From the NCBI RefSeq assembly GCF_027533845.1, contig NZ_JAPZVN010000001.1, positions 868,001-932,000 on the forward strand: a DNA stretch of 64,000 nt, given 5' to 3'. The first letter of the stretch is position 1. Every line of letters starts with the position of its first letter. Source of the stretch: Streptomyces sp. RPT161 (GTDB lineage Bacteria; Actinomycetota; Actinomycetes; Streptomycetales; Streptomycetaceae). The notes below the pieces were generated by a model. The model searched no databases. It saw nothing but the letters and a program-made list of their open reading frames with translations, and had not been told where the DNA came from. Positions 20,851-49,787 of this stretch are shown here, piece after piece. The position numbers were made by a program, and so were the translations under genes.

Positions 20851-22053
20851 CTACGCCGCCGCCCGAACCGCCTCCGCCACCCGGGGCGAAGCGAACGATG
20901 TACCGCACACGAACCGCATCAGCGGACCGAACGTCGCCGCCGACGGCAGACCGGTGAAGTACAGGCCGGGCACAGAGGCCTGGAAGCCTTGGTCCAGCCA
21001 GGGGGAGCCGCCACTGCGGGTCAGCCGGGCGCGCAGCTCAGGGCTGAGGAACCCGAGCGCGCCGAGGTCGACGCGGTAACCCGTGGCCGCCACCACATGG
21101 TCCGCCGCGAGCTGACCGGCGCGGCCCCCGGGCCCGCTGGTCGACAGCACGACGCGCCCCGCGTCGTCCACCCGTGCCCCGGTGAGCACTCTGCCCTGCA
21201 GCACCGGAACCCGCCCCGCGACCCGTTCCTTCAGCCACCACGCGCCACGCGGCCCCAGCACCTTCCGCACCAGCCACAGCCTGCTCTGCTCCGGCAGATA
21301 GCGGAACGCCGCCGGCCCCGGCACATTGCTGAACGCGTACAGCGACCAGGCCCGGCCGACCGGCGAGTCCGGCTTCCATTGCAGGCCGTCGCGCGGCGGC
21401 GCGCCGAACCCCACCGCCCCGGCGCGCCGCGCCACCACCCGTACCGACGCGCCCGCCTCGTGCAGCAGCGCCGCGCTCTCCAGCGCGGACTGCCCGGCGC
21501 CGACCACCAGCACCTCGCGGTCGGCGAACCGTGCGAAGTCGGTGTGCTGCGAGCTGTGCGAGACCGGTCCGGTCGCCGACGGCCCGTCCGGTGTCACCCC
21601 GCGCAGCAGCGACGGCACGTGTGCGAACCCGCTCAGCCCGCTGGCCACCACCACCGCGCTCGCCGCCAGTTCCTCGCCGGAGTCCAGCTTCAGCCGGAAC
21701 TCACCGGCCCCCCGGTCCACCGAGACCACCTGGACCCGTTCCACCTCGGGCACCAGCCGCTCCTGGAACCACCGCCCGTAGCGCACGAAGAAGTCCAGGG
21801 TGACCAGGTCGCGCTCGGTTACCAGCCGCGGCTCCCCCACCGCGTCGCAGAAGTCCTGGATGGTGTGGCCGGGGTGCGGCGCCGAGATGGTCGACGCGCT
21901 CGGGGTCGATTTGAGCACCATGCGGGCCGGCATGGTGTCCGTCCAGTTCGACAGCGGGGTACCGAAGACCCGTACCGTGACGCCGCGCCCCTTCAGGTGC
22001 GCGGCGGTTGACAAGCCGTACGGCCCGGCACCGATCACCACCACAGGCTTCAT
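20851..22053 (-). CDS. FAD/NAD(P)-dependent flavoprotein monooxygenase-like oxidoreductase
   Basis: Two-dinucleotide-domain flavoprotein, 400 aa. The FAD motif GAGPYG is at residues 8-13 and a second Rossmann motif, GAGQSA at 185-190, should bind NAD(P)H. This layout matches flavin monooxygenases and amine N-hydroxylases. ATG at 22053 is preceded by GGGAGGGATCAG and overlaps the ATP-grasp stop by 4 nt, so the two proteins are made together. The substrate is unknown; the tight pairing with an ATP-grasp ligase suggests a two-step modification of a small molecule or peptide. Confidence 0.85.
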   Translation of the reverse strand: MKPVVVIGAGPYGLSTAAHLKGRGVTVRVFGTPLSNWTDTMPARMVLKSTPSASTISAPHPGHTIQDFCDAVGEPRLVTERDLVTLDFFVRYGRWFQERLVPEVERVQVVSVDRGAGEFRLKLDSGEELAASAVVVASGLSGFAHVPSLLRGVTPDGPSATGPVSHSSQHTDFARFADREVLVVGAGQSALESAALLHEAGASVRVVARRAGAVGFGAPPRDGLQWKPDSPVGRAWSLYAFSNVPGPAAFRYLPEQSRLWLVRKVLGPRGAWWLKERVAGRVPVLQGRVLTGARVDDAGRVVLSTSGPGGRAGQLAADHVVAATGYRVDLGALGFLSPELRARLTRSGGSPWLDQGFQASVPGLYFTGLPSAATFGPLMRFVCGTSFASPRVAEAVRAAA

Positions 22054-23309
22054 ATCTGATCCCTCCCGGAAACGGTCGTTCTGCGGCCCTGCCACATCTG
22101 GAACAGGTGCTTCACGCCCGGCCGCACGAAGCGGGCGAGCATGGTGAAGAAGGGCTTGATGTCGTCGGGTGCCAGCCAGGCCAGTTCCGTGCCGTGCGCC
22201 CGGCGCGGTGCGTGCGGCGTGGTGTAGCCGCTGCGCCGGTAGACGAGCATCGCGGGCAGGTCGATGTTCTCGACCGTGAACCGCCGCCCGTTGAGCTGCT
22301 CGCCCTCCGGCACCCGCTGTCCGGTCAGGTCCAGGTGCTGGGCCCGGACCACGTCGATCCCGGCGGTGTTCTCGAACAGGCGGAACTGCGCGCCCATCCG
22401 GGGGTTGAAGTCCAGCAGCTTGTACCGCCCGTCGCGGCGGTCGTAGCGCCAGTCCAGGTCGACGATGCCCGAGAAGCCGATGTGCTTGATGAACTCACCG
22501 GCCAGCGTGGCCAGTTCCGGGTTGGGCACCGCGTACGCGCATGCCGTCATGCCCGCGTGCGGCGGCCAGGAGCGCACCTTGACCCCGGTGAACAGGGTGC
22601 GCGCGGCATGGTCCGCGTCCACGTAGGCGTGCACGATCCAGTCCTCGGCCTCCTCGCGCGGCAGGTACTCCTGGAGGATGACCCCGGGCCGTTCGCCCCA
22701 GCCGCGGGCCAGTGTCAGCAGCTCGTCCGGCCCGGCGATCCGGGTGGTGCCGGGCACCGCGGGGGACCGGCGGCGCTCGAAGGCCTCCCGGTTCTTGGCC
22801 ACCACGGGGAACCGCGCGGTGGCGGCGAACTCCTCGATGTCGGCGTACGAGTCGGGGAAGGCGGACTTCGGCGCCGGTACCCCGTGGGTGACGCACAGTT
22901 CGTAGAGCCCCTGCTTGCTGGCGAGACGGCGGGGCAGCCGCGGGTCGGTGCGCGGGAGGAGGAACTGATCGCCCAGCGCGTCGGCGTGCTCCGCGATCAG
23001 TACCGCCGCCTCCTCGTCGGTCGGCAGCAGCACGGTGGGCCTGCCGATCCGGCGGCCGATCCGCCGCAGCCCCTCGACCAGCCGGTCCGGGCGTTCCAGG
23101 CCGGTGGTCGGCCAGACGAACCCCTTGGTGAGATAACGCGAGGACGCTGCCGGGGTGAACCGGTCCTCGGTTATGGCGTACATCGGTACGCCAAGCCTGC
23201 CGAGGCTCCGGATGGCTCCAACGCCCCCGTGGTGCAGTGGATAGTTGCCGATTTTGACGATGAGGCCCGGGACGGACCTGTCCAGCGCGAACAACGGCAT
23301 GCTCGCCAC
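22050..23309 (-). CDS. ATP-grasp carboxylate-amine ligase family protein
   Basis: 419 aa. ATP-grasp enzymes activate a carboxylate as acyl-phosphate and join it to an amine. The N-terminal domain (residues 1-100) has a nucleotide-like fold start (GGVGAIRSLGRLGVPMYAITED). The central lysine segment FPVVAKNREAF, the QEYLPREEAEDWIVHAYVD region and the metal-binding end VDLDWRYDRR-LLDFNPRMGAQF place it in the family. The GTG at 23309 follows AGGGGGGATAA. It is first in a two-gene unit, divergent from a 39-aa peptide gene and an exporter. The substrate pair cannot be read from sequence. Confidence 0.85.
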   Translation of the reverse strand: MASMPLFALDRSVPGLIVKIGNYPLHHGGVGAIRSLGRLGVPMYAITEDRFTPAASSRYLTKGFVWPTTGLERPDRLVEGLRRIGRRIGRPTVLLPTDEEAAVLIAEHADALGDQFLLPRTDPRLPRRLASKQGLYELCVTHGVPAPKSAFPDSYADIEEFAATARFPVVAKNREAFERRRSPAVPGTTRIAGPDELLTLARGWGERPGVILQEYLPREEAEDWIVHAYVDADHAARTLFTGVKVRSWPPHAGMTACAYAVPNPELATLAGEFIKHIGFSGIVDLDWRYDRRDGRYKLLDFNPRMGAQFRLFENTAGIDVVRAQHLDLTGQRVPEGEQLNGRRFTVENIDLPAMLVYRRSGYTTPHAPRRAHGTELAWLAPDDIKPFFTMLARFVRPGVKHLFQMWQGRRTTVSGRDQI

Positions 23310-23693
23310 TTATCCCCCCTGGCCACGCAGAGTAAGGGCGTGCTCCCCCACCGTGGCGACCCGTCAGGACGCTACTGGCGAATTCACCCTGGCGGCAACC
23401 AGTTTCGGGATATTGCGATGCCTTTAGAGATCATTCCGCCGAGTACCAGCATGACCGGACATAGGCCCAGCAATCCGGCATACGCGCGTAGAACCACCGG
23501 GGAACTGTCCGTCCCCGCCCTCCGGTTGGCTGTTCACCGGTAAACGTTCGAGAATGAACTTTGGGCATATTGAACACGCTTTGGGTGGTTTCCGTATGCC
23601 CAAGTGCACCCTCCGGAGCATGGGCGCACCCGCGCCCGCGGATCTCCGGGGCGGGAGCACAGCTGTCCCGCCGAGCGTAGGAGGGAGGTCATC
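23310..23693. promoter_or_regulatory. Divergent control region with three TTGGG half-sites
   Basis: This 384-nt region separates the leftward ATP-grasp gene from the rightward peptide gene and is richer in A/T than its surroundings. CTTTGGG occurs at 23559-23565 and again exactly 20 nt on at 23579-23585. TTGGGCATA at 23561-23569 is repeated inverted as TATGCCCAA at 23595-23603. A TTGAAC at 23570-23575 could be a -35 element. The set may be an operator or a leader hairpin. Confidence 0.4.
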
Positions 23694-23813
23694 ATGAGCA
23701 TCTTCGGACGGTTCGGGCGGCGGCACGGTGACGACGGCCACCGCAGGTTCGACCACCGCGGGCGCCACCACGGTCGTGGCGGGCGCTGCGGAGGCGGCGG
23801 CTGGTACTACTGA
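23694..23813 (+). CDS. Small Gly/Arg/His-rich peptide with C-terminal CGGGGWYY (candidate secreted or modified peptide)
   Basis: A 39-residue frame with a very strong Shine-Dalgarno (AGGAGGGAGG at 23680-23689) 4 nt before its ATG. The peptide starts MSIFGRFGRR, has nine Arg, five His and twelve Gly, one Cys (position 32), and ends CGGGGWYY. There is no signal peptide. The ABC exporter begins 92 nt downstream after a hairpin. The pattern resembles a peptide precursor with its exporter. I do not recognise the family; it could instead be a small metal- or RNA-binding protein. Confidence 0.6.
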   Translation: MSIFGRFGRRHGDDGHRRFDHRGRHHGRGGRCGGGGWYY

Positions 23814-23836
23814 CCGCGCCGCGAGGGGTTCCTCAC

Positions 23837-23868
23837 CGCGGGGGTGGCGGCGCGCAGCCACCCCCGCG
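23837..23868 (+). terminator. Hairpin between peptide gene and exporter gene
   Basis: CGCGGGGGTGGC (23837-23848) pairs perfectly with 23857-23868 around an 8-nt loop; 12 bp, no T-run. Placed between a short peptide gene and its exporter, it may act as a partial terminator or mRNA stabiliser that raises peptide over exporter output. The second peptide/exporter pair has the same feature. Confidence 0.6.
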
Positions 23869-23905
23869 TAGCCCGTGACCGGACGCTGCCGAGGAGGCGA
23901 CCGGG

Positions 23906-25708
23906 TTGGACACCGCACGGAAACGGTCCGTCACCACACCGGCCACCGCGGACGACCCGCTGGTGGCGCTGGCCCCCGCGGTCTCGCCGCGCGAGGTCTT
24001 CCGCCGCTTCTGGCCCTGGGTACGCACGGACCGCCGCTGGCTGCTGGCCGCTACGGCGCTGCTGGCCGCGGGGGCGGGCGGTGAGGTGGTCACCGTCTGG
24101 CTGTTCAAGGACCTGATCGACCAGGTGCTGGTGCCCAGGCGGTTCGCCGCGTTCTGGCCGCTGGCCGGATGGATGGCCGCCGTGGCCGCGCTGACCGGGC
24201 TGCTGACCTTCCTCGGCGACTACACCGCGACCTGGGTCGCGGAACGTTTCATCCTGCGGCTGCGCACCGCGTGCGTGGCCCATCTGCACACCCTGCCGCC
24301 GGACACGCTGCGCACCCGCTGGCACGGCGACGTACTGGCCCGGCTGACCTCCGACATCGAACGCATCGAGTCCTTCGTCGCCTCCGGGGTGATCGACGTG
24401 GCCTCGGCGCTGATCAGCCTGGTGTTCTTCGCCACCGCGGCACTCTTCCTGAGCTGGCCCCTCGCGCTCGCGGTGTTCCTGGTCAGCCCGGTGTTCTGGC
24501 TCAGCGCACGGCACTTCGGCGGCCGGGTGCAGCGGCTGTCCCGGGAGGCGAGGCGGCGCGACGGCCGGGTCACCGCGGTGCTTGAGGAGAGCCTCGCCAA
24601 CGCGCCCGTGGCGCACGCCTACAACCAGCAGCGGCGCGAGGTCGGCCGGATCCGCCGGGAGGGCGAGGCGCTGCTGCGGGCCGAACTGGCCACCGCTCGG
24701 GTGGCCGCCGCGTACCCGGCGGTCCTGGACGTGCTGGAGGTCCTCGGCGGCCTCACCGTGGTCGGGCTCGGCGCCTTCGAACTCAGCCGGGGTGCGCTCA
24801 CCGTGGGCGGACTGCTCGCCTTCGCCGCGTTCCTCACCCAGTTGTTCGGTCCCATCCAGCAACTGTCCGGGCTGGCAACGGTGTTCGGCGCGGCGAGCGC
24901 AGGCGCGGAACGGATCATCGACCTGGCCCGGCTGCGCTCCCCCGTCAACGACCGCCCGGCGGCGGCACCGTTGCGCGCGGTGCGGGGCGAGCTGAGCTGT
25001 ACCGGGGTGCGGGCGTCGTACACCACGGGGGACGGGGCACCGGTGCTGCGGGACGTGACGTTCCGGGTGGCGCCGGGTGGGGTGCTCGCCGTGACGGGGC
25101 CGAGCGGGGCGGGCAAGTCGACGCTGGCCAAGCTGCTGGTGCGGTTCATGGATCCGGACGCGGGCGCGGTGCTCCTGGACGGCGTCGACCTGCGGGACGC
25201 GACGCTGGTGTCCGTGCGGCAGGCGGTGACGCTGCTGCCGCAGGCCTCGCAGTTGTTCTCCGCGTCCATCCGCGACAACATCGCCTACGGCCGCCCGGAC
25301 GCCACCGACGACGAGATCGTCCAGGCCGCCAGGGACGCCGACGCGGACGAATTCATCAGCGCCCTGCCGGACGGCTACCACTCGGTACTGGGTGAGCACG
25401 GCCTCCAGCTCTCCGGCGGCCAGATCCGCCGCATCACCATCGCCCGCGCCTTCCTGCGGGCCACGCCGGTGCTGGTACTGGACGAGCCCACCGCGGGCCT
25501 CGACCACGCGGCGGCGCTCCGCGTCTTCGGGCCACTGCGCCGCCTGATGGCGGGCCGCACGACGGTACTGATCACCCACGCCCCCGAACTGGCCGCACTG
25601 GCCGACGCGGTGCTCCGGCTCAACGCCGACGGAACACCGGCGGACTCCCCACCAGTCGGACGTCGTACGGGGTGCTACGACGGTCCGGCGGCGCGAGCGG
25701 GACGCTGA
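23906..25708 (+). CDS. ABC exporter, fused membrane and ATPase domains (half-transporter)
   Basis: 600 aa. Residues about 50-320 form a six-helix type-IV exporter membrane domain; the ATPase domain has Walker A GPSGAGKST at about 397-405, signature LSGGQIRRITIARAFL and Walker B VLVLDEPTAGLD. It works as a homo- or heterodimer. There is no N-terminal C39 peptidase domain. The TTG start at 23906 is supported by GAGGAGG 8 nt upstream. It resembles the exporter at 47713-49569 (shared lead-in FRRFWP-V--DRRWL), and both follow a short basic peptide gene. Cargo is unknown. Confidence 0.9.
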   Translation: MDTARKRSVTTPATADDPLVALAPAVSPREVFRRFWPWVRTDRRWLLAATALLAAGAGGEVVTVWLFKDLIDQVLVPRRFAAFWPLAGWMAAVAALTGLLTFLGDYTATWVAERFILRLRTACVAHLHTLPPDTLRTRWHGDVLARLTSDIERIESFVASGVIDVASALISLVFFATAALFLSWPLALAVFLVSPVFWLSARHFGGRVQRLSREARRRDGRVTAVLEESLANAPVAHAYNQQRREVGRIRREGEALLRAELATARVAAAYPAVLDVLEVLGGLTVVGLGAFELSRGALTVGGLLAFAAFLTQLFGPIQQLSGLATVFGAASAGAERIIDLARLRSPVNDRPAAAPLRAVRGELSCTGVRASYTTGDGAPVLRDVTFRVAPGGVLAVTGPSGAGKSTLAKLLVRFMDPDAGAVLLDGVDLRDATLVSVRQAVTLLPQASQLFSASIRDNIAYGRPDATDDEIVQAARDADADEFISALPDGYHSVLGEHGLQLSGGQIRRITIARAFLRATPVLVLDEPTAGLDHAAALRVFGPLRRLMAGRTTVLITHAPELAALADAVLRLNADGTPADSPPVGRRTGCYDGPAARAGR

Positions 25709-25775
25709 TCGGCACACAGGTGGCGGCGGTCGCTGCTACCTTGTCGTGTCCTGATCGACAGTGGAGGAGAAGGAC

Positions 25776-26225
25776 GTGCGCAACGCAGCGCGGATCGCGG
25801 GGGCGGCGATTGTGGCCGCCGTGCTGGTGAGTGGGTGCGGCAGCAGCAAGAACGACGGCAAGCAGTCGGACGCCACGCCTTCGGCGACCGCGTCCCAGGC
25901 CGCGCCGTCCGCCAGCGCGCCGGTGGTCAGGCTTGACGGGACGTGGGCCGGGAACAACGCGGACGGCGTGAAGTCGCTCACCGTCGTCGGCGACAAGGCG
26001 GCCATCGCGGGCAAGACGGTGTGCGCGGGCGCCACCGTGGTGGTCGGAGGGCAGACGCTGCTGCACCTCAAGTGCGCGGACCACAGCACCGATCACGCCA
26101 ATGGCGTGGTGACGCCCGGCTCGGACGGCAAGACCCTCTCCGTCAACTGGGGTTCCAGCACGGACACGTTCACCCGCACGGCGACCAAGCCGATCATCCC
26201 CAGCATCGACAAGCTGAAGCAGTAA
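25776..26225 (+). CDS. Small secreted lipoprotein, function unknown
   Basis: 149 aa. A type II signal peptide ends in the lipobox VSGC with the lipidated Cys near residue 22, followed by a Ser/Thr/Ala-rich linker and a compact domain of about 100 residues with two Cys (TVCAG and HLKCADH) that may form a disulfide. GTG at 25776 follows GGAGGAGAAGG. It comes 67 nt after the exporter gene and ends at a strong terminator, so it may belong to the same transcription unit. I do not recognise the domain. Confidence 0.82.
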   Translation: MRNAARIAGAAIVAAVLVSGCGSSKNDGKQSDATPSATASQAAPSASAPVVRLDGTWAGNNADGVKSLTVVGDKAAIAGKTVCAGATVVVGGQTLLHLKCADHSTDHANGVVTPGSDGKTLSVNWGSSTDTFTRTATKPIIPSIDKLKQ

Positions 26226-46880: not shown

Positions 46881-47642
46881 TCAGTAGCTGTTACGCGCCT
46901 GTAGCGGAAGCCGACCGGCTTCGGGACACTGCGCCTGGCCCGCCGGACGGGTGATGTCCACACCACCGTTGACGTCGAGCACGTAGCCGACCCCGCGCAC
47001 CGTGTGGATCAGCCGAGGTCGGCCGCCCGCCTCGGTCTTGCGGCGCAGGTACATCACGTAGACGTCCAGCGCGTTGGTGGTCGGCCGGTCATGCTCGCTC
47101 CACAGCGCGCTGAGCATCTGCTCACGGGCGAGCGGCTTGCGCGGATACGACAGGAACAGTTCCAGCAGCTCGAACTCGGTGCGCGTCAGGCTGAGTTCCG
47201 CCCCGTCCCGGGTTACGGTGCGCGACGGGGTGTGCATCCGCAATCCGCCGTAGGTGAGCACGGACTCCTGCTGGGCCGCGGCGGCTCGGCGCAGCAGTAC
47301 CGCGATCCGGGCGAGCAGTTCCTCGTTGACGAACGGCTTGGTCAGGTAGTCGTCGGCCCCGGCCTCCAGACCCGTGACGCAGTCGCCCACGGTGTCCCGG
47401 GCGGTGAGCATCAGCACCGGCACCTCGTTGCCCCGCGCCCGCAGGCGGCGGCAGACGGTCAGGCCGTCGGTGCCCGGCAGCAGCACATCCAGCACCACGA
47501 GGTCCGGGCGGTGCGTCTCCAGTGCCCGAAGGGCCTGCTCGCCGTCCATCGCCAGCAGCACCTCGTAGCCGCGCCGCTGCAGGATGAGTTCCAGGGCGTG
47601 GCGGATCGCCGGTTCGTCGTCAACCACGAGGACACAGGTCAC
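46881..47642 (-). CDS. Response regulator, OmpR/PhoB family, without adjacent kinase
   Basis: 253 aa. The receiver has Asp8-Asp9, phosphoacceptor Asp52, Thr80 and Lys102. The C-terminal winged helix includes LTRTEFELLELFLSYPRKPLAREQML, VYVMYLRRKTEAGGRPRLIHTVRGVGYVLD. GTG at 47642 follows GAAGGAGG. It lies 70 nt downstream of the exporter gene and no histidine kinase is next to it, so its phosphodonor is unknown. A 35-residue tail follows the DNA-binding domain. Confidence 0.92.
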   Translation of the reverse strand: MTCVLVVDDEPAIRHALELILQRRGYEVLLAMDGEQALRALETHRPDLVVLDVLLPGTDGLTVCRRLRARGNEVPVLMLTARDTVGDCVTGLEAGADDYLTKPFVNEELLARIAVLLRRAAAAQQESVLTYGGLRMHTPSRTVTRDGAELSLTRTEFELLELFLSYPRKPLAREQMLSALWSEHDRPTTNALDVYVMYLRRKTEAGGRPRLIHTVRGVGYVLDVNGGVDITRPAGQAQCPEAGRLPLQARNSY

Positions 47643-47712
47643 CGGGGCCTCCTTCGATCGCTGGGGGCCGCACAAAGCGGCGCGGGGTCCCTCCAGGGGG
47701 TACGTAAATCGG

Positions 47713-49569
47713 TCACGCCCGGGCCTCCTGCCGCGCGGAGTGCAGTTCCGCGTAGACGCTTCGGCGGCCCAGCAGTTCCGCGTGCCCGCCGTGCTCCACC
47801 AGGCGTCCGCCGTCGAGTACGAGGATCCGGTCGGCGTCCGGGGCCAGCTGCAGATCGTGGGTGATCATGATCGTGGTGCGGCCCGCCATCAGCCGGCGCA
47901 GCGGGCTGATGACCCGGCGGGCGGCGACCGCGTCCAGACCCGCGGTCGGCTCGTCCAGCACGAGCACCCGGGCGTCGCGCAGCATCGCGCGGGCGATGGC
48001 GATGCGCTGCAGCTGACCGCCGGAGAGCCGGGCGGTGTGCGGGTCGATCAGGGTGTCGTAGCCGTCCGGCAGGGCGGTGACGAAGTCATGGGCGTCGGCG
48101 TTGCGGGCCGCCTCGACGATCTCCGCCCGGCTGGCGCCCGGCCGCCCGCAGCCGATGTTCTCGGCGATGGTGTCGTGCAGGATCAGGGTCTGCTGCGGCA
48201 GCAGGGCGACGTGGCGGCGCAGGAAGCCCAACGGCAGCGCGTCCAGCGGTACCCCGTCCAGGCGCACGGTGCCGGTGTCCGGGTCGTAGAAGCGCAGCAG
48301 CAGCTTGGCGAACGTGGACTTGCCCGCACCGCTGGGGCCGGTGACCAGCACCAGTTCGCCGGGCCGGGCCTCGAAGCTGATCCCCCTCAGGGCGTCGCAC
48401 GTGGCGCCCGGGTAGCGGAAGCCGACGTCGGTGAGCGTGACGGTGCCGTGTACGCGCCGGGGGTTGACGGGGTGCGGCGGATCGCTGACGGCCGGTTCGG
48501 TGTCCAGGATCTCCAGCAGCCGCTCGGCGCCCGCGGTGGCCGCCTGGAGGGTCAGCCCCAGGTTGCCCAGCGACTGGATGGGCGGATAGAGGTAGCCGAG
48601 GAAGGCGGCGAAGGCGAGCAGCTGCCCGATTGTCAGCCGGTGCTGGGCGATCTCCCAGGCGCCGAGTCCGATCACCGCCAGCACGCACAGGGTCTCCACG
48701 ACCTGGACGATCTGCTGGTACAGCTCGGTCAGCCGGGCGCCGGTCACCGAGGCCCGCAGCCAGGCGCGGGCCTCACGGCGCAGCCGCCTCTCCTCGGCGC
48801 GCTTACGGTTGTACGCCTGGGTGAGCACGATGTTGCCCAGCGACTCCTCAAGCACCGAGGTGATCGCCCCGTCCGCGACCCGTTCCGCCCGCGCCACGCG
48901 TTTGATCCGACCGGAGAACCGTCTCGCCGCGAGCCAGAACAGCGGCGCCAGGCAGAAGGTGGCCAGCGCCAGTTGCCAGCACAGCCAGAGCGCGGCGGCG
49001 GCGTAGAACACCACGCTGAACAGGGCCGAGATGGTGCCGACCACACCGGTGAGCACCAGTTGCTCGATGACCGCGACGTCCCCGGTGAGCCGCTCGACCA
49101 GGTCGCCGAGCCGGTGCCGGGCGAAGAAGTCCGGAGGCAGGTCCTGGAGGTGGCCGAAGACCCGGGCGCGCAGCCGCATCACGAAGCGCTCGGCGGTCCA
49201 CACCGCCAGCGAGTTGCCCAGGTACCCGATGACCGCGCCCAGGACCGTCACCGCGAGCCACTCTCCGGCCGGGTGCCAGAAAGCGGCTACCGAACCGGTG
49301 CGCAGGGCGTGGTCGGTCAGCTCGCTGAACAGCAGGATGGCGGCGGTCTCACCGAGCGCGGCCAGTACGACGCACACGCAGATGACCGCGAGCCAGCGGC
49401 GGTCGCCCTTCACCAACGGCCAGAAGCGGCGGAACGCCTGCCGCACAGCGACGCCGCTGACCCGCTGGGTGTTCTCCTCGCTTTCCGCGCCATCGGCGTG
49501 TTCCGCGTTTTCTTTTTCCGCGCCAATTCGCTTTTCGGAATCGCGCTCCTGGTAACCGCTCAACGCCAC
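47713..49569 (-). CDS. ABC exporter, fused membrane and ATPase domains (second copy)
   Basis: 618 aa. A cytoplasmic lead-in of about 45 residues, then a six-helix exporter domain, then an ATPase domain with Walker A GPSGAGKST at about 411-419, signature LSGGQLQRIAIARAML and Walker B VLVLDEPTAGLDAV. It is similar throughout to the exporter at 23906-25708, with shared lead-in and ATPase end. No peptidase domain is present. The GTG at 49569 has a weak ribosome-binding site; translation may depend on the upstream peptide gene 74 nt before it. Confidence 0.88.
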   Translation of the reverse strand: MALSGYQERDSEKRIGAEKENAEHADGAESEENTQRVSGVAVRQAFRRFWPLVKGDRRWLAVICVCVVLAALGETAAILLFSELTDHALRTGSVAAFWHPAGEWLAVTVLGAVIGYLGNSLAVWTAERFVMRLRARVFGHLQDLPPDFFARHRLGDLVERLTGDVAVIEQLVLTGVVGTISALFSVVFYAAAALWLCWQLALATFCLAPLFWLAARRFSGRIKRVARAERVADGAITSVLEESLGNIVLTQAYNRKRAEERRLRREARAWLRASVTGARLTELYQQIVQVVETLCVLAVIGLGAWEIAQHRLTIGQLLAFAAFLGYLYPPIQSLGNLGLTLQAATAGAERLLEILDTEPAVSDPPHPVNPRRVHGTVTLTDVGFRYPGATCDALRGISFEARPGELVLVTGPSGAGKSTFAKLLLRFYDPDTGTVRLDGVPLDALPLGFLRRHVALLPQQTLILHDTIAENIGCGRPGASRAEIVEAARNADAHDFVTALPDGYDTLIDPHTARLSGGQLQRIAIARAMLRDARVLVLDEPTAGLDAVAARRVISPLRRLMAGRTTIMITHDLQLAPDADRILVLDGGRLVEHGGHAELLGRRSVYAELHSARQEARA

Positions 49570-49595
49570 CCCGCTTGCGCCGTGGACGAGTTGAC

Positions 49596-49630
49596 GGCGG
49601 GACCGCGGCGTGCCCCGCCGCGGTCCCGCC
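49596..49630 (-). terminator. Hairpin between second peptide gene and its exporter
   Basis: A perfect 14-bp stem (49596-49609 and 49617-49630) with a 7-nt loop and no T-run. Its position matches the hairpin at 23837-23868 in the other peptide/exporter pair. Confidence 0.65.
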
Positions 49631-49643
49631 GGTTATGGCTCGA

Positions 49644-49787
49644 TCAGCAAACGGGGCGACGGCGCGGGTGGCGCCGGTCCACCGGCTTGTGGCACTCGTG
49701 CTTGGGCTCGCCCACCGGACGGTGCTTCTTCGGGGGCTCCGGGTGACGACGCTTGACGACGATCGGAACGATCCGACGGAAAGTCAT
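49644..49787 (-). CDS. Small Arg/Lys/Pro/His-rich peptide ending in Cys (candidate secreted peptide)
   Basis: 47-residue frame with GGAGG 6 nt before its ATG. The peptide starts MTFRRIVPIVVKRRHPEPPK and ends HPRRRPVC; it has eleven Arg, six Lys, six His, eight Pro and two Cys (32 and 47). It has no signal peptide. It precedes an ABC exporter and a regulator on the same strand. I do not recognise the family; a proline/arginine-rich antimicrobial or signal peptide is one reading. Confidence 0.6.
   Translation of the reverse strand: MTFRRIVPIVVKRRHPEPPKKHRPVGEPKHECHKPVDRRHPRRRPVC

Follow-up and report, generated by a model that had tools for sequence, protein, structure and literature searches.

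The window, the whole 64,000-nt stretch of Streptomyces sp. RPT161 DNA that was analyzed, contains between positions 20,851 and 26,225 the five genes described in the original prediction, and the sequence confirms their positions. A 39-residue peptide ending in CGGGGWYY is encoded on the plus strand, separated by 384 nt from a divergent ATP-grasp gene. The latter shares an ATGA (22050-22053) with the FAD oxidoreductase gene, which makes the proposed translational coupling of these two plausible. The features of the locus are the following:

20851..22053, minus strand: FAD/NAD(P) oxidoreductase whose gene overlaps that of the ligase, outside the module (co-occurrence across 80 loci)
22050..23309, minus strand: ATP-grasp-like ligase, a neighbor outside the module (co-occurrence across 80 loci)
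23680..23689, plus strand: Shine-Dalgarno (SD) sequence of the peptide, GGAGGGAGGT (sequence; kept in both sister species)
23694..23813, plus strand: polycationic peptide of 39 residues, MSIFGRFGRRHGDDGHRRFDHRGRHHGRGGRCGGGGWYY, type A (sister orthologues; family upstream of related exporters)
23837..23868, plus strand: stem-loop in the gap ahead of the exporter, with a stem of 12 bp (CGCGGGGGTGGC/GCCACCCCCGCG) and without a T tract (sequence; compensatory change in S. rubrisoli)
23906..25708, plus strand: ABC exporter with fused ABC_membrane and ABC_tran domains, no peptidase domain (Pfam; peptide-linked clade)
25761..26225, plus strand: lipoprotein of the nuoN neighborhood, outside the module (relatives in exporter-less loci)

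The five genes had been read as a candidate cluster, in which the peptide would be modified by the ligase and the FAD enzyme, and the lipoprotein could act as an immunity or receptor partner. Their distribution across genomes points to a different arrangement. Pfam detects Pyr_redox domains in the FAD enzyme and ATP-grasp signals of the ligase below threshold only, with no match in the window peptide or in the lipoprotein; the predicted ATP-grasp structure (pLDDT 54) was left out of the interpretation. A scan of genome contigs for ligase relatives yielded 80 loci, the closest records (92-94% identical) belonging to Streptantibioticus rubrisoli and S. ferralitis; the window can accordingly be assigned to Streptantibioticus. 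The FAD gene directly follows the ligase in 77 of them, and in many the pair sits between nuoN and a polyprenyl synthase gene. The exporter lies near the ligase in two of the 80 loci, both from Streptantibioticus; on the exporter side, the available sequence exceeds 3 kb in 73 of the 80 and is shorter than 3 kb in seven. With 78 loci lacking the exporter, the pair usually occurs without peptide and exporter, the very distribution that the original prediction had named as speaking against it. In Streptomyces, the ATP-grasp and FAD genes form a conserved component of the nuoN neighborhood. Relatives of the lipoprotein likewise adjoin nuoN in Streptomyces loci that have no exporter, and its assignment as an immunity partner was rejected on this ground. 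The peptide and the exporter occur without the pair in other genera, and in one genome (G017), the exporter/peptide genes and the ATP-grasp gene are found on separate contigs. The ligase gene of S. humicola (L063) lies almost directly beside nuoN, so that the unit of peptide and exporter appears to have been inserted into a core locus. The locus is made up of two unrelated gene pairs rather than one cluster.

Because of TTGGG-type half-sites in the control region between them, the two sides had been suggested to be co-regulated. Three such half-sites do exist, yet they barely exceed the expectation from a composition shuffle (P = 0.044) and are not conserved, as S. ferralitis has two and S. 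rubrisoli has none; a shared TTGGG operator was rejected for this lack of conservation. Within Streptantibioticus, the 130 nt directly upstream of the ATP-grasp gene (23310-23440) hardly vary among the three species and are better conserved than the peptide side; they likely hold a conserved promoter or a regulatory leader for the ATP-grasp and FAD genes. The pair itself (20851-23309) is widespread next to nuoN in Streptomycetaceae; the ligase matches no curated family above cut-off, and the pair has no close solved relative. It is an uncharacterized conserved pathway.

Comparison with the two sister species offers a closer view of the peptide. The syntenic orthologues are MNIFGWFGRRHGCGDDRRHFDHRHGHGHDHGRRRRGGYWWY in S. 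rubrisoli and MNIFGPFGRRRGGFGRRGGRFFRGYGRDRGFRGFGRGRGCGGDDWYY in S. ferralitis, and the three peptides differ in length by in-frame changes (39, 41 and 47 residues). The head MxIFGxFGRR and the end WYY/WWY are conserved, while the middle varies; the sister peptides are 55-62% identical, compared to 85-90% for the exporters. Judged by its sequence, the window peptide is more than a chance ORF, because sister species hold syntenic orthologues with conserved head and end.

Homology searches with the peptide in relatives returned low-complexity noise only, and the exporter proved to be the useful query. In Pfam, one ABC_membrane and one ABC_tran domain are the sole peptide-export domains found in the window exporter, which starts with TTG at 23906 behind GAGGAGG. 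It has no peptidase C39 domain, and the peptides, with heads of ~9 residues, carry no double-glycine leader. Searches in the family, class and phylum recovered relatives of the exporter in many genera; upstream of nearly every one is a short ORF that follows an SD sequence and encodes a peptide with a low-complexity tail. In a tree of 146 exporters, the peptide-linked ones form a single clade of 78 leaves with a support of 0.99. A peptide is recognized in 69 of these 78 by the automatic rule and in 75 with inspection (six added, including L224), whereas outside the clade 5 of 68 exporters pass the peptide rule, which corresponds to chance level; leaves numbered L346 and later were found via the peptide, and the exporter-found members alone give 54 of 62 by the automatic rule. 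Three clade exporters (L211, L214 and L230) are without a recognizable upstream peptide and may reflect losses, unusual peptides or different cargo.

As an in-genome control, we listed all ABC_membrane exporters of five genomes and examined 80. Eight stand apart with at least 487 bits to the window exporters, the next one scoring 278. A peptide according to a fixed rule, which was set after a first set of loci, including a few of the eight, had been seen, is present for seven of these eight window-like exporters versus 12 of the 72 others (Fisher P = 1e-4). The eighth is accompanied by an 80-residue Gly-rich peptide that fails the basic-residue limit only. A reverse search of 199 Streptomyces genomes with a type-B peptide alone (types are defined below) gave 30 loci, several of them neighboring copies within one genome, with the exporter directly downstream in 29. 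The pairing of short peptide and exporter, as originally suggested, is thus borne out across related exporter loci.

Beyond this pairing, the gene contexts of the module differ between genera, and the exporter is the sole conserved neighbor of the peptide. Across ~40 wider exporter loci, no modification enzyme is conserved in an adjacent position, nor is a protease or immunity gene conserved beside the module. The exporter is distributed patchily: within the family, the search threshold applied left 72 of 298 genomes with it. The plasmid collection contained no clade exporter at 1e-80. Several local associations were also observed. Two-component genes (response regulator, sensor kinase) adjoin many type-B modules. 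A small Hanks-type Ser/Thr kinase gene directly adjoins the exporter in L191, L201, L206 and L209, and since the peptide tails are Ser/Thr-rich at least in L206 and L209, phosphorylation of the peptide is conceivable there. Modules with His/Gly- or Ser/Thr/His-rich peptides are found beside argB-argD-argR in the Streptomyces loci L188, L192, L197 and L198.

The peptides share a bipartite design, in which a hydrophobic head of ~9 residues is followed by a fast-changing tail rich in Arg, Lys, His, Gly and Pro. Type A follows the pattern MxIFGxFG..RG/HR..WYY, with a relative of the form MSYFNRRDRG..RRRRFGFW, and type B, rich in Lys, Ala and Pro, the pattern MSFHKIAPVKK..KRRPVGHKG; outside the class, heads of the form MAxFSxxxPAR are seen in seven of eight loci. 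Type-B arrays contain between one and five related copies, and an SD sequence precedes each of them. Position 3 is hydrophobic in 87% of heads versus 12% in tails, a statistic taken from selections blind to the N-terminus, while N-terminal statistics in general come partly from peptides picked by low complexity. Position 2 is mostly Ser or Ala, residues that permit removal of the initiator Met. Heads are conserved at the amino acid level, with synonymous change at Pro8. The median GRAVY is +0.5 for the head, -1.9 for the tail and -1.36 for the whole peptide, with a range of -2.74 to -0.61 over 75 peptides. The median length is 43 residues and the median net charge +11; 57 of the 75 peptides have no Cys. 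Polycationic character is a majority rule, as 10 of the 75 have no net positive charge when His is excluded.

The window holds a second module (46881-49787) on the far side of the nuo genes, consisting of a Pro/Arg/His-rich peptide, an exporter and a response regulator:

46881..47675, minus strand: OmpR-type response regulator beside the second module (relatives adjoin type-B modules in Streptomyces)
47713..49569, minus strand: second-module exporter, sharing 49% identity with the one at 23906..25708 (similarity search)
49644..49787, minus strand: second polycationic peptide of 47 residues, MTFRRIVPIVVKRRHPEPPKKHRPVGEPKHECHKPVDRRHPRRRPVC, type B-like (sequence)

The linkage of the OmpR-type regulator to this module is seen directly, and from it we infer that the regulator may control the module.

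The DNA between peptide and exporter displays a further common feature. A stem-loop follows the last peptide in 65 of 66 loci, with a median of -36 kcal/mol and a start at a median of 13 nt past the peptide stop codon, the search being confined to the DNA after that stop. Five or more T within 10 nt past the stem occur in only one of 65 loci; this test is weak, because Streptomyces terminators often lack a T tract. Compared with dinucleotide shuffles, the structure after the stop reaches z below -2 in 71% of cases versus 9% in the coding control; the window locus itself reaches only z = -0.9 despite its 12-bp stem, in which a C-G pair is replaced by T-A in S. rubrisoli, a compensatory change. 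Among the tandem arrays that were inspected, a strong stem is present after the last copy only. Codon usage in the peptides resembles that of ribosomal-protein genes: the share of CGT among Arg codons is 31% in peptides, 22% in ribosomal-cluster genes and 5% in the exporter, and that of AAG among Lys codons is 99, 100 and 86%, respectively. The window peptide lacks this CGT-rich signature (one of nine Arg codons). Together, the strong hairpin ahead of the exporter and the ribosomal-protein-like codon usage suggest that the peptide would be abundant and the exporter less so; the tandem arrays and the heads found throughout the phylum likewise point to an abundant product.

Several known systems resemble the module in part. 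The leaderless bacteriocins LsbB, with its exporter LmrB, and the multi-peptide aureocin A70 also have a dedicated ABC exporter and share with the family a length of 30-60 residues, the lack of a leader, cationic character, a place beside an ABC transporter and sometimes a tandem arrangement (PMC6131525). Leaderless bacteriocins are amphiphilic, with GRAVY values near or above zero (about -0.1 to +0.7 for tabulated examples; PMC6131525), in contrast to the 75 family peptides, all at -0.6 or lower; the family tails are also of low complexity, and no immunity gene is conserved. Due to this difference in hydropathy, we do not class the family as leaderless bacteriocins, although the dedicated adjacent transporter is common to both. 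Aureocin A53-like peptides are likewise short, leaderless and from Actinomycetota, but with ~50 residues, a Trp-rich sequence and a common fold, they are by description distinct from the polycationic tails (PMC11580447). The window exporter matches ABCB/MsbA-type exporters such as Sav1866 and TM287/288 in fold class and over its full length; those are not described as peptide-linked, whereas the window exporter sits in a separate, peptide-linked clade. No Pfam or NCBIfam family matches ten representative peptides, and we found no account of such a peptide family in the open-access literature. The window peptide thus appears to belong to a large, apparently undescribed actinobacterial family of short, strongly cationic, exporter-linked peptides.

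We consider it fairly likely that the window carries a two-gene secretion module, composed of a leaderless polycationic peptide and its own ABC exporter, with a bacteriocin-like role as the likeliest one. One transcript would start upstream of the peptide, and the hairpin would make the peptide message outnumber that of the exporter. The exporter would then recognize the hydrophobic head and pump out the unmodified peptide, the most probable form of the cargo. Outside the cell, the disordered, positively charged tail could bind anionic targets, such as membranes of competitors, teichoic acids or nucleic acid; the ATP-grasp/FAD pair would play no part. In view of the rapidly evolving tail, the patchy occurrence and the tandem copies, the likeliest function is bacteriocin-like antimicrobial use, ahead of one at the producer's own envelope, and the exporter could by analogy confer immunity, as LmrB does. 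Points against this reading are the three clade exporters lacking a recognizable peptide, the ten peptides with no net positive charge, the missing CGT signature of the window peptide, the lack of a conserved immunity gene and a hydrophilicity well above that of known leaderless bacteriocins. Alternatively, the same module may serve the producer by binding its envelope, extracellular DNA, polyphosphate or metal ions, with no part in competition. This possibility, which overlaps with the preferred reading in having the module in common, is tentative. His/Gly/Asp-rich tails beside argB-argD-argR in one Streptomyces group, the response regulator and the sensor kinase adjoining many type-B modules, and the similarity of Lys/Ala/Pro tails to histone-H1-like polyanion binders all fit with it. 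Tail composition, however, varies between groups, and the scarcity of His and Cys in Lys/Pro tails excludes metal binding as a general function; the patchy distribution also argues against such a role.

Other explanations dispense with secretion of an unmodified peptide. Runs of Arg, Lys or Pro can slow ribosomes, and the peptide might be a regulatory leader, in which slowing on basic and proline-rich codons lets a hairpin gate read-through into a multidrug-type exporter. In BmrB-BmrCD of Bacillus subtilis, a short ORF and a hairpin similarly precede an ABC exporter, and rare codons affect read-through (PMC4191407); rare Arg codons are slightly more common in the family peptides than in the exporter (12% versus 8%). 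The BmrB terminator, however, lies inside the leader ORF, overlapping its 3' end (PMC4191407), whereas the family stem, searched for in the DNA after the stop codon, begins there and has no T tract. Tandem peptides, up to five, and conservation of amino acids in the head further separate the family from that system, and its codons are mostly those of highly expressed genes despite the slight excess of rare Arg codons; we regard a leader function as improbable. Modification of the peptide by the ligase and the FAD enzyme prior to export, as in a RiPP cluster, is very unlikely. Both enzyme types are known from RiPP pathways, and pair and module lie side by side in opposite orientation in each of the Streptantibioticus loci examined (three), but the distribution described above, including the unlinked genes of G017, speaks against a functional connection. 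Least credible is that small GC-rich ORFs were misread as genes and that their link to the exporter is fortuitous. GC-rich genomes do yield many spurious Arg/Gly/Pro-rich ORFs, and the composition rule also admits 12 of the 72 control exporters; for the family, this origin is refuted by the in-genome controls, the sister orthologues and the tandem arrays. The difference between clade and control exporters (75 of 78 versus 5 of 68), the amino-acid conservation of the heads with synonymous change at Pro8 and the codon bias of expressed genes add to this.

Returning to the secretion module, the family may extend to a phylum-wide class of secreted, disordered polycations, united less by their sequence as a whole than by a tiny hydrophobic N-terminal tag and a dedicated exporter clade accepting almost any tail, a proposal that we see as evenly balanced. 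Such a class may span protamine-like poly-Arg, histone-H1-like Lys/Ala/Pro, His/Gly-rich and RG/aromatic types, and may amount to leaderless secretion in which nine residues serve as the signal and the cargo is free to evolve. If so, it would follow an unusual export rule, in which a minimal N-terminal tag suffices and the charged tail is hardly constrained. Actinobacteria, as the chief source of antibiotics, would then possess a large store of short cationic peptides that come with their own exporters. Cluster searches based on modification enzymes would miss such peptides, and the exporter clade offers a simple handle to list them in each genome.
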